A stretch of 43,541 nucleotides of DNA, from positions 1 to 43,541 of the forward strand of contig JAGVZQ010000002.1 in NCBI GenBank assembly GCA_018302465.1, read 5' to 3'. The position numbers and the translations under genes are program-made. Below are positions 33,500 through 39,357 of the stretch, piece after piece; within the stretch, counting starts at the first letter, position 1; the number at the start of each line of letters is the position of its first letter. A model generated the notes under the pieces. It saw only the letters and a list, made by a program, of their open reading frames with translations. It did no database searches and was not told the origin of the DNA. This DNA comes from Candidatus Woesearchaeota archaeon. Lineage in GTDB: Archaea; Nanobdellota; Nanobdellia; SCGC-AAA011-G17; GW2011-AR20.

Positions 33500-34916
33500 G
33501 TTCAAAGCAGGAAACATCATCTATATATAGAATCTTGTCTATATCATAAGTTTCCTTTGTTTTTTCAGATAATAGTACATATCTTACATTGCCCCTTTTC
33601 ATAATTTCAAGAGCTTTCGATTTAGAAAATGTTTTGTAAACGACTTCTGTATCGCCAAGTCTCTGCACAGGATTAGGCGCCAATATAAAATTTGAATCAG
33701 CAAAGTTCTTTTTCCCTGAAAAATAACTGACTATATTCCCTTCATTAAACGCAGATAAGACAACTATTTCAGAATCATTAATTTCTTTTAAGAATTCTAA
33801 GTCATCTACATTGTATTTTTCCTCTAAATCATTTTGATAATAGTACAAAGATGGAACAATGCCAAAGACAGCGATAATTATTAAGAAAACAACAACGAAA
33901 TGAGTATAGTATTTAGACCATTTTGTAAGTTTAAAGTAATCCAATAATCTTCTTATACTTAATGGGGTCATCAGTGTTAGAAATAACCCAAGAAATAGGA
34001 TGCCAACTTTAACATCAATATTTTTTAGTAATAAAAGTACAAAAGTAGCAAGAATTGGACTGCCAAGCAGCAAAACATCTTTCTTTCTCTTCCCAGAAAG
34101 CCCATAATAAATTCCAAGAATACCAAAGACCAAAGGTATAACTCCTATTATAACCAAAGAGTCAGATAAGCTAAAATTAAAGAAGTAATAATTAAATGCT
34201 GTATCCGGTATATTCTGCCTCACAAAAGAACTGCCATACTGCAGAAAAACCTTTCTGAAAAGTATAAAATTTATAAGGAACATTGAAAAAAATGAAAATA
34301 TTATAGCCTCTTTTCTTATCCCGGATAAACTCATTGATTCAGATACTAAGATGACTATGTAAAGCAATAGAGATAAAATAAACAAAAATGATGAAGCATG
34401 CACTAAAGGAAATATAAATGATAAAATAATAAACAATATTAAAAATTTTTTATCTTTTATTTTAAGTAATGAATAAAACATTAATAGCATCAATGGAAGC
34501 GCTAGTGAATATACAGAAAGATGATTTACAGTAGAACTAAAAACAATTGGGATAAAAGAGGATATAAAAGCGGTTATCAAAGAAGAGTTTTCATCTTTAG
34601 TGAGCTCAAGGGAAATAAAATATATAATTAAAGGCAGAGTAGATATAAATATTTCAGGAAATAATTTCAAAGAGAATGGAATAAACGCAAGTATCGCCAT
34701 TATACCATGAAACAGCTGGGGGGTTATTACATCTCTCCCGCCGTAGCTGAGGGGGTCATAGGTAATCAGGTTGGTCTTATCTCTCATCATTTCAATAAGC
34801 CTTAAATTAGAATAAGAATCATCATCTGCAAAATAATCAGAATGAAAAGATATAACTATCCTTACAATAAAACTAAACAAGATAATTAACGCCAGCAAAA
34901 TAGTTTGCTTTTTCAT
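33465..34916 (-). CDS. GT-C-like membrane glycosyltransferase, paralogue 1
   Basis: The 483-residue polytopic protein has a short first helix and then an acidic loop FADDDSYSNLRLIEMMRD near residue 33, comparable to the STT3/AglB N-terminal DxD loop. About eleven transmembrane helices and a C-terminal domain (about residues 370-483) follow. Its loop layout and C-terminal 'VRYVLLSEKTKETYDIDKI' resemble the downstream neighbour's 'IKYVYITPDMKN', so the two are paralogues. Its ATG overlaps the scpB stop as ATGA. Substrate unknown. Confidence 0.78.
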   Translation of the reverse strand: MKKQTILLALIILFSFIVRIVISFHSDYFADDDSYSNLRLIEMMRDKTNLITYDPLSYGGRDVITPQLFHGIMAILAFIPFSLKLFPEIFISTLPLIIYFISLELTKDENSSLITAFISSFIPIVFSSTVNHLSVYSLALPLMLLMFYSLLKIKDKKFLILFIILSFIFPLVHASSFLFILSLLLYIVILVSESMSLSGIRKEAIIFSFFSMFLINFILFRKVFLQYGSSFVRQNIPDTAFNYYFFNFSLSDSLVIIGVIPLVFGILGIYYGLSGKRKKDVLLLGSPILATFVLLLLKNIDVKVGILFLGLFLTLMTPLSIRRLLDYFKLTKWSKYYTHFVVVFLIIIAVFGIVPSLYYYQNDLEEKYNVDDLEFLKEINDSEIVVLSAFNEGNIVSYFSGKKNFADSNFILAPNPVQRLGDTEVVYKTFSKSKALEIMKRGNVRYVLLSEKTKETYDIDKILYIDDVSCFEHERETIYKIVC

Positions 34917-35443
34917 TTTTCTTGAGGCTCTGCTTTTATGACCTCACCAGCATTTTCTATTTCACCAAATTTCTGCTGTAGCTTATCCTCAACAACATCA
35001 AAATAGTCAAAGAATTTTGGTGTTAATTTTAATAACCTTGTTCTCCCTTTCTTTTCAGATATCACAAACTCTAATTCCTTTAATTTCTTTATATGGTCAT
35101 ATGCGCCGTTTCCTCTCATTTTTATCATATCTGACTGCAGGGCAGGTTTCTTATAGGCGATTAAAGCTAAAGTTTCCTGAGTTGCCTTGTCTAATTCTGA
35201 ATCATTCAATAATTTAGTAGTCAAATACATATAGTCTTTTTTTATGTTTAATGATGCCACATTATTGTCTACAGTTAGCTTAAGTGAGGTATCTCTTTTC
35301 TCATAATCTTCCGCAAGCTCATTCAATGCATCTCTAACAGCTCCAACAGAGCCAAGGTTGCACAAAGAAGCAAGTTCTTCAAAAGTTATAGCCCTTCCAA
35401 CAGTAAACAAAACAGCTTCTATCCTGTTTTTGATATCTTGCAT
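34913..35443 (-). CDS. scpB: ScpB-like condensin subunit
   Basis: The 176-residue protein has the two winged-helix domains of ScpB: IEAVLFTVGRAITFEELASLC (first) and ATQETLALIAYKKPALQSDMIKMRG (second, the most conserved ScpB segment). A RTRLLKLTPKFFDYF turn follows. ScpB binds the SMC-kleisin complex that organises chromosomes. The partner scpA is not adjacent. Instead the gene is overlapped (ATGA) by a GT-C membrane protein gene. A TATA-like AATTTAAAAATC in the 37-nt gap after aRF1 suggests a new transcription start. Confidence 0.88.
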   Translation of the reverse strand: MQDIKNRIEAVLFTVGRAITFEELASLCNLGSVGAVRDALNELAEDYEKRDTSLKLTVDNNVASLNIKKDYMYLTTKLLNDSELDKATQETLALIAYKKPALQSDMIKMRGNGAYDHIKKLKELEFVISEKKGRTRLLKLTPKFFDYFDVVEDKLQQKFGEIENAGEVIKAEPQEK

Positions 35444-35480: not shown

Positions 35481-36968
35481 TTAATTATTTATAGCAAATC
35501 TTAACAAAGCAACTATCCCGGTAATCTCTTTTATCTGCTTCCCCTCGCTCGTTTCTGTGGAAATAAACTCTACATCAGCCCCAGTAGCATCTGCTTTTTT
35601 CTCTAATTCCTCAGTAGTCTCTTCATCCAAGTCTTCAGACAGTAAAAGAAGTTCAACAGCCCCATACTCTAAAGCTTTTTCTACCTCTGCCTTACCATAC
35701 GCAACCATTTCAGGACGTTTTGCAAGAGTTTCCAGAACTTTGTTAACTATATTCTTCTCTTTTATTATAGATTCTTGTGTTAAAAGATCAGAAGATTTAT
35801 CCACCAGCTCATTAAGACCGAATTCTCCAGTATAACTCAGGTCTTTTGTTCCGATAACCTTCTTTTTTAATTCATTATTCAGATAATCCCCATCAAAAAA
35901 TGTTTCTTTAGTATGACCCGGACCCCCTATTAAAATTCCTTTTATCTCTTTTTTCTCTAAAAACTCTTTATTAGCAGCCCCTCCAATTCTTTTATAAAAG
36001 TCTTTGGCAGCTCCTTCTCTCAGCCTTGCAAACCTGGCCTGTGAATTATGAACTAAAATTTTATTAGCAAAAAAGTTTTTGTTACTAACTTCTATGTCTA
36101 TCATTGTAACTTCCTTATCTAATACTTTTATTGAGCTTATACTAACATCTTTTCCTTTGCAATCAACAAGCTTATCATGTTTTGTAAGTTCAAACGCAGA
36201 TTTTGTGCTGCCGTCCCCTAAGAATAATAAATGATCCCCGCTGCATTGTATTTCTTCCTCTTCTGTTTTGATAACATAAACATTCTCCTTTGTTGTCTTC
36301 CAGACTTTTTTTACTTCAGAAACTATTTCTTTTTTCTCTTCAAAATTATAGGATACAACTTCATCTCCTTCTTCCAACTCTTCTATATGGGCTGATTGTC
36401 CGTCTGCAAGATCCACAGAAGTATCTGGCATTAAACACTGCCCCCCTGATTTTATTTTTCCAGGAACTCCAGAAGTCAAATGAATAAGCTCAATTATTGC
36501 ATTCCCCTTTAACACCCCAATTGTCCCATCTCTATTGTCCATGACAATTAAACCATAGATTTCCTTAGTTTCAAGCATTTGTTTTAATATATCAAGAACA
36601 AAATTTTGATCGCATCTATACAACCTTGTCTGTATCGGTGTTGGAGGTTCAATGCTCCAGACTTTGATATCAACTTTGCTTTCATTTGTGGATGCATTTC
36701 CTGAAAAAGCAGCTAATCCATTTTCAGGTGTTCTCTTATACAATCTCAGATGCCTGATCATTTTTTCTAAAGAATCAATAACTCTCTGCCTGTTGTTCTT
36801 GTCTTTTATATTGGAAGCAGTCCCTTGCTCTTGCTCTAAATGCTGTATTATCTTAATTAAATCATATCCCTGAGGTACATAAACAGAAACAAGCTCAGTA
36901 TGCCTGCCTCTTATTGCTTCTAGTTCTTTAATGAACTTTTTTAATTTCTGTATTTTTCTTTTATCCAT
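35481..36968 (-). CDS. prf1: Peptide chain release factor aRF1, intein-containing
   Basis: The 495-residue precursor contains an aRF1 host protein of about 364 residues plus a 131-residue intein. Host landmarks are the stop-codon recognition loop TASNIKDKNNR (residues 51-60, NIKD where the consensus is NIKS), YRCDQNF (the YxCxxxF motif, 117-123) and GGQ at 175-177. The host resumes with SQARFARLREGAA at 309. Domain 3 is short: the zinc-binding mini-domain with paired CxxC found in many archaeal homologues is absent. aRF1 reads stop codons and its Gln triggers peptidyl-tRNA hydrolysis on the ribosome. The start overlaps the valS stop by 8 nt, so the two are co-transcribed. Confidence 0.93.
   Translation of the reverse strand: MDKRKIQKLKKFIKELEAIRGRHTELVSVYVPQGYDLIKIIQHLEQEQGTASNIKDKNNRQRVIDSLEKMIRHLRLYKRTPENGLAAFSGNASTNESKVDIKVWSIEPPTPIQTRLYRCDQNFVLDILKQMLETKEIYGLIVMDNRDGTIGVLKGNAIIELIHLTSGVPGKIKSGGQCLMPDTSVDLADGQSAHIEELEEGDEVVSYNFEEKKEIVSEVKKVWKTTKENVYVIKTEEEEIQCSGDHLLFLGDGSTKSAFELTKHDKLVDCKGKDVSISSIKVLDKEVTMIDIEVSNKNFFANKILVHNSQARFARLREGAAKDFYKRIGGAANKEFLEKKEIKGILIGGPGHTKETFFDGDYLNNELKKKVIGTKDLSYTGEFGLNELVDKSSDLLTQESIIKEKNIVNKVLETLAKRPEMVAYGKAEVEKALEYGAVELLLLSEDLDEETTEELEKKADATGADVEFISTETSEGKQIKEITGIVALLRFAINN
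36045..36437 (-). other. Mini-intein in the GGQ motif of aRF1
   Basis: Precursor residues 178-308. Block A begins with the splice nucleophile Cys (CLMPDTSVDLADG). The block B-like stretch is QCSGDHLLFLGDG, with His-246 in the conserved TxxH position (SGDH). Block F is DIEVSNKNFFANKILVHN, and block G ends in His-Asn followed by host Ser. These are the residues needed for standard class 1 splicing. At 131 residues there is no room for a homing endonuclease domain, so it is a minimal Hint-type intein. Removal regenerates GGQ-SQARF. It is known that inteins favour conserved active sites. That this one controls termination is inference. Confidence 0.9.
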
Positions 36969-39357
36969 CTTTAAATTTTATCTCTAAACCATCCCCAAAA
37001 GATAAGTTTTCTGTGTTAGTAACAGCTTTAAAGTCTTCTATTAAATCTTTTTCATATTTTTTATACTTAACTGGTAGAACAACATCTATCTTTTCTTTTA
37101 AGGATTTTTTATTCTTATTCTTGTGCATTCTTATTTCAGAGATTAATTGGATAAACTCTTCATACTTTTTACAGAGCTTGCTATCAACATGACCAATACC
37201 AGGCCATTCACTTATATGAATACTTTTAACTTTTTCATATTTTAAGAAATGCTTCTGGTATAATTCTTCTGTGATATAAGGAAGAATAGGCGATATTAAC
37301 TTTACTAATGTTAAAAGTGAAGTATATAAGGTATACTGGGCAGAAATTCTTGCATCTTTTCCTCTTTTATCAGGATTGTATAATCTATCCTTAACTACTT
37401 CAAGATAATTGTCACAAAATGTATGCCAGAAAAACTTTTCTACTTCCAATTTAACTTTTGAATACTCATATGATTCAAATGCTTCAGTGCATGTTTTTAT
37501 CAATTTATTCAGTTGGAATAATTGGCATTTATCTAATGTTAAAACTTTTTTAGGTTTCTGAATCTTAAAATCATCCAGATGCATAAAAGCGAATTTAGAA
37601 GCATTCCAAAGTTTTATTGTGATTTTTTGGCATGCAATTAATTCTTTTTCCTGAAAAGCAAGATTATCTCCCAGCTTAGAACCTGCAGTCCAGAACCTCA
37701 AACAATCTGCAGAATACTTCTTCATCACTTCCTGAGGCTCTATTATGTTTCCCTTAGATTTAGACATTTTTCTTCCTTTCGGGTCTAAACCCCATCCGCT
37801 AATCATAACATCTTTCCATGGATTTTTCTTAAAATGTAATTGGCTTTTAACTAAAGTATTGAACAGCCAGAAAGTTATAATATCCTGAGCCTGAGCTCTT
37901 AATGACATCGGGAATATTTTTTTTCTTACTTTCTCATCTTTTACTAATTGAACTGCAATCTGTGGAGTTAAAGATGAAGTAGTCCATGTATCTAAAACAT
38001 CCTTTTCAGGAATAAATTCATTAGAAGAACATTTTGGACATTTTTTTATTCTTGGTTTGTCATACATTGGATCAACAGGCAAATCTTTTTCATCTGCTAA
38101 TATCACTTCATTACAGTTTTTGCAATACCATACAGGAAATGGAATGCCAAAATATCTCTGCCTGGATATGCACCAGTCCCATTGCAGTCCTTTTATCCAG
38201 TTATCATATCTTACTTTCATATGCTCCGGATACCAGTTTAATTTACTCCCTTCATTTAAGAATAATTTTTTTAAATCCAAATATCTGATAAACCACTGTT
38301 TTGTCTCTAAAATCTCTATCTCAGTCCCGCATCTTTCATGAACATTGACCATATGTGTAATCTCTTTTTGGGAAACTAATAGTCCTCTTTCTTTTAAATC
38401 TTCAATTATAGTTTTTCTTGCTTCCTGGATAGACATATCATTGTATCTTCCAGAATTAATTATCTTTCCATCCTTACTAATTACAATTTTCAAAGGCAGT
38501 TTATATGCCTTGTACCATTCTGTATCAGTAAGATCCCCGAAAGTGCAGCACATTACAATTCCGGTTCCTTTTTCTATATCAACTCTCTCATCAGCAATTA
38601 TCTTAACCTCATGGTTGAATATCGGAACAATCGCAGTTTTTCCTATTAAGCTTTTATTTTTCTTGTCTTTTGGATGTACAAATATGGCAACACAGGCTGC
38701 TAACATCTCAGGTCTCGTAGTCCCTATTACAATATCTTTTCCATCTTTCAATTTAAATTTTATATCATTAAAATAAGATTTCAGTTCCTTATCTTCCAAC
38801 TCTGCCTGGGCAATAGCTGTCGTACATTCAGGGCACCAGATAGATGGAGCTTCTTTTTGATATTCCCTTCCATCCTCATACAAATCTAAAAAAGATTTCT
38901 GGGAAATTCTTCTGCAATGTTCATTTATAGTAGTGTAAAATAAAGAGAAATCACAGCTCATACCTATATCTTTCCAGTTTTTTATGTATTTTGGCCTGAA
39001 CTCTTTCTCCAAAGCATCTAAACATATTTTTACAAACTCCTGTCTTTCCATGTTTGCAGCTTTTACTTTTCTTTCTTTCTCAACTAGCCTTTCTGTAGGC
39101 AGCCCATTATCATCAGTCCCAAAAGGATAAAATAAATTAAATCCCCTCATTCTTTTATAGCGGGCAATAAAATCCATTTGTGAATAAGAGAAAGCATGAC
39201 CCATATGCATCTTCCCAGACACAGTAGGGGGGGGAGTATCTATAGAAAATACAGGTTTCTTGCTTTTTGCATCAAATTTGTATACCTTTTCTGATTCCCA
39301 GAATTTCTGTAATCTAGGCTCAGCTTCTTTTGCATCATAATTCTCGTTTGAAACCAT
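36961..39357 (-). CDS. valS: Valyl-tRNA synthetase
   Basis: The 798-residue class I synthetase has HMGH (residues 51-54) in the HIGH position within PPPTVSGKMHMGHAFSYSQ, the ValRS phrase FGTDDNGLPTERLVEKE, a zinc-type CPECTTAIAQAELED, an editing domain with TTRPEMLAACVAIFVHP, a second metal-type site (CKNCNE ... CPKCSS), and KMSKS at residues 530-534. The anticodon-binding helical domain closes it. It charges tRNA-Val and edits mischarged threonine. A TTTAAATAG box upstream fits a leaderless start. The last 8 nt overlap aRF1. Confidence 0.95.
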   Translation of the reverse strand: MVSNENYDAKEAEPRLQKFWESEKVYKFDAKSKKPVFSIDTPPPTVSGKMHMGHAFSYSQMDFIARYKRMRGFNLFYPFGTDDNGLPTERLVEKERKVKAANMERQEFVKICLDALEKEFRPKYIKNWKDIGMSCDFSLFYTTINEHCRRISQKSFLDLYEDGREYQKEAPSIWCPECTTAIAQAELEDKELKSYFNDIKFKLKDGKDIVIGTTRPEMLAACVAIFVHPKDKKNKSLIGKTAIVPIFNHEVKIIADERVDIEKGTGIVMCCTFGDLTDTEWYKAYKLPLKIVISKDGKIINSGRYNDMSIQEARKTIIEDLKERGLLVSQKEITHMVNVHERCGTEIEILETKQWFIRYLDLKKLFLNEGSKLNWYPEHMKVRYDNWIKGLQWDWCISRQRYFGIPFPVWYCKNCNEVILADEKDLPVDPMYDKPRIKKCPKCSSNEFIPEKDVLDTWTTSSLTPQIAVQLVKDEKVRKKIFPMSLRAQAQDIITFWLFNTLVKSQLHFKKNPWKDVMISGWGLDPKGRKMSKSKGNIIEPQEVMKKYSADCLRFWTAGSKLGDNLAFQEKELIACQKITIKLWNASKFAFMHLDDFKIQKPKKVLTLDKCQLFQLNKLIKTCTEAFESYEYSKVKLEVEKFFWHTFCDNYLEVVKDRLYNPDKRGKDARISAQYTLYTSLLTLVKLISPILPYITEELYQKHFLKYEKVKSIHISEWPGIGHVDSKLCKKYEEFIQLISEIRMHKNKNKKSLKEKIDVVLPVKYKKYEKDLIEDFKAVTNTENLSFGDGLEIKFKDG

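Follow-up and report, generated by a model that had tools for sequence, protein, structure and literature searches.

It is very probable that the aRF1 gene of the window (the 43,541-nucleotide stretch of contig JAGVZQ010000002.1 from a Candidatus Woesearchaeota archaeon) carries a class 1 mini-intein between the GGQ motif and the following serine of the only aRF1 in the genome, that translation termination depends on its splicing, and that it belongs to a DPANN-wide allele whose mini form is inherited mostly vertically.

Identification of a class 1 mini-intein in aRF1

The host protein was identified as aRF1 by the presence of eRF1 domains 1–3, the GGQ motif and a match to TIGR03676 (aRF1_eRF1) scoring 393 bits (cut-off 234.7), which is broken at the insert (Table 1). 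The translation of the ORF reads ...PGKIKSGGQ/CLMPDTSVD... at the first junction and ...FFANKILVHN/SQARFARL... at the second. This places the insert exactly between GGQ177 and Ser309, as 131 codons running from 36437 down to 36045, the same coordinates as those given in a preliminary description of this DNA. The start of the gene is overlapped by 8 bases by the upstream aminoacyl-tRNA synthetase gene and the two are probably co-transcribed.

Table 1. Features of the aRF1 gene, its intein and the neighbouring genes (positions in the window)
Feature	Position	Strand	Remarks
aRF1 precursor ORF, intein included	35481..36968	minus	495 aa + stop; TIGR03676 393 bits
N-extein, residues 1-177, eRF1_1 and start of eRF1_2, GGQ at end	36438..36968	minus	
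Catalytic GGQ codons, residues 175-177	36438..36446	minus	
Mini-intein, 131 aa, Cys178-Asn308	36045..36437	minus	PF14890, TIGR01445, Hint fold (predicted)
Intein Cys1, first nucleophile, block A	36435..36437	minus	invariant 74/74
Block B SGDH, Ser243-His246, S-x-x-H form	36231..36242	minus	His 74/74, Ser 72/74
Block F Asp291	36096..36098	minus	invariant 74/74
Intein C-terminal His307-Asn308, block G	36045..36050	minus	invariant 74/74
+1 extein nucleophile Ser309	36042..36044	minus	invariant in 29 aligned minis; Ser in every counted +1 codon
C-extein, remainder of eRF1_2 and eRF1_3	35484..36044	minus	
Class I aminoacyl-tRNA synthetase (Leu/Ile/Val type), upstream neighbour	36961..39357	minus	Pfam
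ScpB-like gene, downstream neighbour	34913..35443	minus	Pfam

The insert matched Pfam PF14890 Intein_splicing (E 2.2e-15, 57 bits) and TIGR01445 (intein_Nterm; 42 bits against a cut-off of 24.5). Its AlphaFold2 model (29 site-mates) had a mean pLDDT of 89 and a pTM of 0.82, and a Foldseek search against the PDB returned intein or Hint domains for the whole of the top 50 (BIL2, Ssp DnaB, gp41-1, NrdJ-1, hedgehog), with E-values of 1e-9 to 1e-12 for the BIL2, Ssp DnaB, gp41-1 and NrdJ-1 inteins. When the whole precursor was modelled, the strands of the insert were unchanged and confidence was low at the two joints only. The preliminary description had proposed a mini-intein directly after GGQ, with the reservation that the 131 residues might be another domain lacking a Hint fold; the profile matches, the predicted Hint fold and the catalytic residues bear the proposal out.

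In the 74 inteins parsed from this site, Cys1, the block-B His, the block-F Asp and the terminal His-Asn were invariant (74/74). The site family is assigned to class 1 on its Hint fold, Cys1, block-B His, terminal His-Asn and +1 Ser. The earlier statement that all class 1 splice residues are present holds with one correction, in that block B has the form S-x-x-H instead of the textbook T-x-x-H, a conservative variant found throughout the family (Ser in 72/74, Thr in 2/74). No match to LAGLIDADG was obtained in a profile scan of the 131-aa insert, in line with the earlier view that it contains no endonuclease.

The chemistry of class 1 intein splicing is established. The site, the fold prediction, the conserved residues, the single aRF1, the distribution and the purifying selection are read from sequence; splicing, homing and the reason for retention are inferred. 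The translated insert would fold into a Hint domain, the Gln177-Cys178 bond would be converted to a thioester by an N-S shift, and the chain would be transferred to the hydroxyl of Ser309. Cyclisation of Asn308, aided by His307, and an O-to-N shift would then link GGQ to SQARF. The GGQ loop would be whole only after splicing, leaving termination reliant on this reaction. It is expected that endonuclease-bearing relatives home into the highly conserved GGQ site, with the mini form there now passing mostly by vertical inheritance, and that the intein persists because the host is essential and only its precise loss would be tolerated.

Copy number of aRF1 and dependence on splicing

The window genome is a draft of 748,631 bases in 30 contigs and is 97.7% complete. 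No second aRF1 was found in it using PF03464, PF03465 and the protein itself as queries; the three whole-genome searches of the draft gave one eRF1-family gene, which agrees with the earlier claim that this is the only release factor gene. A single-contig genome, G003 (archaeon GW2011_AR20, CP010426.1; 829,411 bases), also has an only aRF1 that is occupied at the same site, here by a full-length intein of 510 aa. It should also be noted that a pelota gene was not found in the window genome by the same whole-genome searches; several relatives have one. Genome G176 of the same class has two aRF1-like genes, on contigs C25 and C33, one of which fits the general profile for archaea far better (526 bits); contamination could account for this.

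The GGQ tip of class-I release factors must reach the peptidyl transferase centre. As the insert interrupts this tip, unspliced precursor should be inactive, and as the interrupted gene is the sole aRF1, peptide release should depend on splicing. The position of the insertion directly after the GGQ of the sole aRF1 thus supports the reliance on splicing that had been suggested, and the protein synthesis of the host, like that of the relatives occupied at this site, appears to be dependent on the self-splicing of the insert. It follows logically, as also suggested, that the stop codon of aRF1 itself would require spliced aRF1, which would form a feedback loop. For the motif, which has been described as universally conserved in e/aRF1, cf. 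PMC2613156.

Distribution of inteins at the GGQ site

A match to aRF1 was present in 89 of the 103 genomes of the same order. An intein occurred at the identical codon in 44 of the 88 genomes read at the site and was absent from the other 44, and a presence of this frequency at one codon indicates that the insert is not due to chance. The carriers span 14 of the 19 families and 32 of the 62 genera, with 27 having a mini-intein (130-144 aa) and 17 a full-length form, the latter count taking in two broken by contig ends. A sample of 280 genomes drawn from the class yielded further inteins at the site in members of other orders, and an intein-plus-junction profile run against GTDB species genomes detected 149 related stretches. 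The best 80 of these 149 were essentially from DPANN archaea, namely from records of Woesearchaeota, Pacearchaeota, Nanoarchaeota, Aenigmatarchaeota, Diapherotrites, Ca. ainarchaeum, Forterrea and Nanohaloarchaea, along with a few whose title is simply 'archaeon' and one 'bacterium' record. The nearest named relative was Ca. Woesearchaeota RIFCSPLOWO2_02_FULL_34_11. Viral carriers were also looked for, and no relatives were found in viral contigs. The GGQ codon is a recurrent insertion site for inteins, not the site of a one-off event, and the allele is common in DPANN archaea.

Full-length forms and history of the mini-intein

The full-length relatives examined are 421-522 aa in length and carry LAGLIDADG_3. 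On the host tree, intein presence shows at least 20 state changes. An intein tree built on 131 columns split most minis from the full-length forms (98/97), with two Diapherotrites minis grouping with the full-length forms. Mantel comparison of intein and host distances gave 0.74 for the minis and 0.42 for the full-length forms. The simplest reading would be one of repeated homing by endonuclease-bearing forms, together with a mini lineage that is now mostly vertical.

An origin of the mini form by simple decay of the resident full-length intein of its family was rejected for families f1, f4 and f23, where the two forms did not fit one clade (AU p 0.001-0.003) and so are different lineages at one site. 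Decay of the full-length form to the mini was not rejected for f13 (AU p 0.53), nor was a single clade of mini and full-length forms for f10 (AU p 0.21). Grouping all minis in one clade was likewise not rejected (p 0.61; p 0.10 for a narrower subset that excluded G081 and the named loci), and the minis may possibly have arisen once.

Within genus g40 (L042, L060, L061), the intein lengths are 422, 359 (with an internal deletion) and 144 aa, and the endonuclease is apparently in the course of being lost. In L034, L043 and L225 (508-522 aa), the N-terminal splicing part and LAGLIDADG are separated by an HTH_3 domain (XRE-type), which is absent from the scanned forms of 422-434 aa. The codon of the +1 Ser (TCN in carriers and AGY at empty sites, in five pairs) was considered as a footprint of homing and dropped, as phylogenetically independent pairs gave p ~0.5. 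Elsewhere in the window genome (G000), intein N-terminal matches amount to ten in 0.75 Mb, with contigs C7, C13, C16, C26, C27 and C28 involved. The seven scanned besides aRF1 have SMC, Rpb1 domain 5, T2SSE ATPase, HATPase, MCM and PolD DP2 hosts and carry LAGLIDADG; the HATPase host has two intein matches in one 1589-codon frame.

Selection and alternative explanations

For close pairs, dN/dS of the inteins was 0.08-0.22 where measurable and that of the exteins 0.02-0.10, values obtained by a counting method and rough since dS approaches saturation. The exteins are strongly constrained, and the ratios of the inteins, though higher, are far below 1, so that splicing is almost certainly maintained. 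In five pairs from sister lineages, the empty site and the occupied one are flush on both sides, with zero host codons lost or gained.

These results bear on two readings in which splicing of the sole aRF1 would not be needed. One is that the Hint domain no longer splices, or is capable of cleavage alone, aRF1 being active as the precursor or as a pair of fragments. Among the top structural matches are BIL domains, a group in which some members cleave instead of splicing; however, every copy at the site keeps all of the splice residues, the +1 Ser and the terminal His-Asn among them, and the insert occupies the very tip that has to reach the peptidyl transferase centre, so that this reading is highly improbable. 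Just as improbable is a non-functional gene with an intact aRF1 elsewhere in the genome. The preliminary description had named such an intein-free second copy as the finding that would count against it, and a draft of 30 contigs at 97.7% completeness leaves some room for one, but no other aRF1 came to light in the three whole-genome searches, the exteins are strongly constrained, and the single-contig AR20 genome likewise has an intein-bearing aRF1 only.

It could also be proposed that the mini-intein is now a domesticated switch, a cue such as redox, metal, temperature or energy state altering the speed of splicing and so controlling termination post-translationally. The retention of the endonuclease-free mini form across the radiation of family f4 and in other lineages would fit this, and conditional splicing is reported for other inteins (PMC5790916, PMC6195587). 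Against it, Cys1 is the only cysteine conserved among the minis and no extein Cys adjoins the site, the host tree calls for 20 or more transitions in intein state and many close relatives lack the intein, and there is no other pointer in the sequence to a sensor; a domesticated switch is therefore considered unlikely. As no conserved second (regulatory) Cys was found in 32 mini-inteins, the redox control of termination suggested earlier is unsupported, while metal or temperature control of aRF1 splicing, from the same suggestion, is logically possible. In the conditional inteins of P. horikoshii RadA and mycobacterial DnaB an essential protein is also blocked until splicing; in contrast, no response to a cue is evident for the aRF1 intein. 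That DPANN archaea retain the endonuclease-less GGQ minis as a post-translational gate on peptide release, in which a cue-set splicing rate would fix the supply of mature aRF1 and with it termination and growth, is likewise unlikely.

Relation to known inteins

It is well established that inteins can occupy essential active sites. Those of archaeal MCM, RadA, RFC, PolD and RNA polymerase likewise lie in a highly conserved catalytic motif of an essential gene, are patchy in distribution and have LAGLIDADG forms at the same site; they belong mostly to replication, repair and transcription, whereas aRF1 acts in translation termination. The mini-inteins of Ssp DnaB, gp41-1 and Mtu RecA share with the aRF1 insert the Hint fold, Cys1, block-B His, C-terminal His-Asn, a nucleophilic +1 residue and the lack of an endonuclease. 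The present case differs from these splicing domains in its host, a class-I release factor, in its site at GGQ and in having Ser for Thr in block B. BIL domains (Tetrahymena BIL2, C. thermocellum BIL) are the best fold match to the insert, but in the aRF1 intein family the residues needed for splicing are all retained at the two junctions, and the host is conserved on either side. One translation factor intein is recorded in eukaryotes, in eIF5B/IF2 (PMC5784728), and differs from that of aRF1 in protein, site and domain of life. No report of an aRF1 or eRF1 intein was found in the open-access literature searched; an earlier listing elsewhere, such as in InBase, is possible. Relative to the open-access literature searched, the aRF1 host and the GGQ site are therefore new, the kind of element itself being known.

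Peptide release is universal and essential. With about half of a DPANN order having an intein at the GGQ tip, it would seem that the entire termination step can be in the hands of a self-splicing element. The site also offers roughly 75 natural inteins, both mini and full-length, as a set for testing mobility, endonuclease loss and conditional splicing.

Aromatic variants of the GGQ motif

In eight genomes of the order, the sole detected aRF1 has an aromatic residue in place of the Gln of GGQ: GGW in G040 (L045), G051 (L042), G080 (L060), G081 (L061) and G083 (L071), GGF in G013 (L140) and G079 (L070), and GGY in G009 (L139). About three independent origins are suggested. Four of the eight have an intein after the W and four have none, which indicates that the change of Gln was not caused by the intein. 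TIGR00537 (hemK_rel_arch), which we take to be the archaeal family that includes the GGQ glutamine methyltransferase, was over cut-off in 71 of 80 GGQ genomes versus one of the eight aromatic-variant genomes (Fisher p 1e-5, uncorrected for relatedness). These variants, which are possibly more surprising than the intein, and the accompanying loss or mutation of the methyltransferase call into question the indispensability of the GGQ glutamine. In seven of the variant genomes TIGR00537 is absent or below cut-off, and in the eighth, G013 (L229), the copy has NAPY for NPPY.
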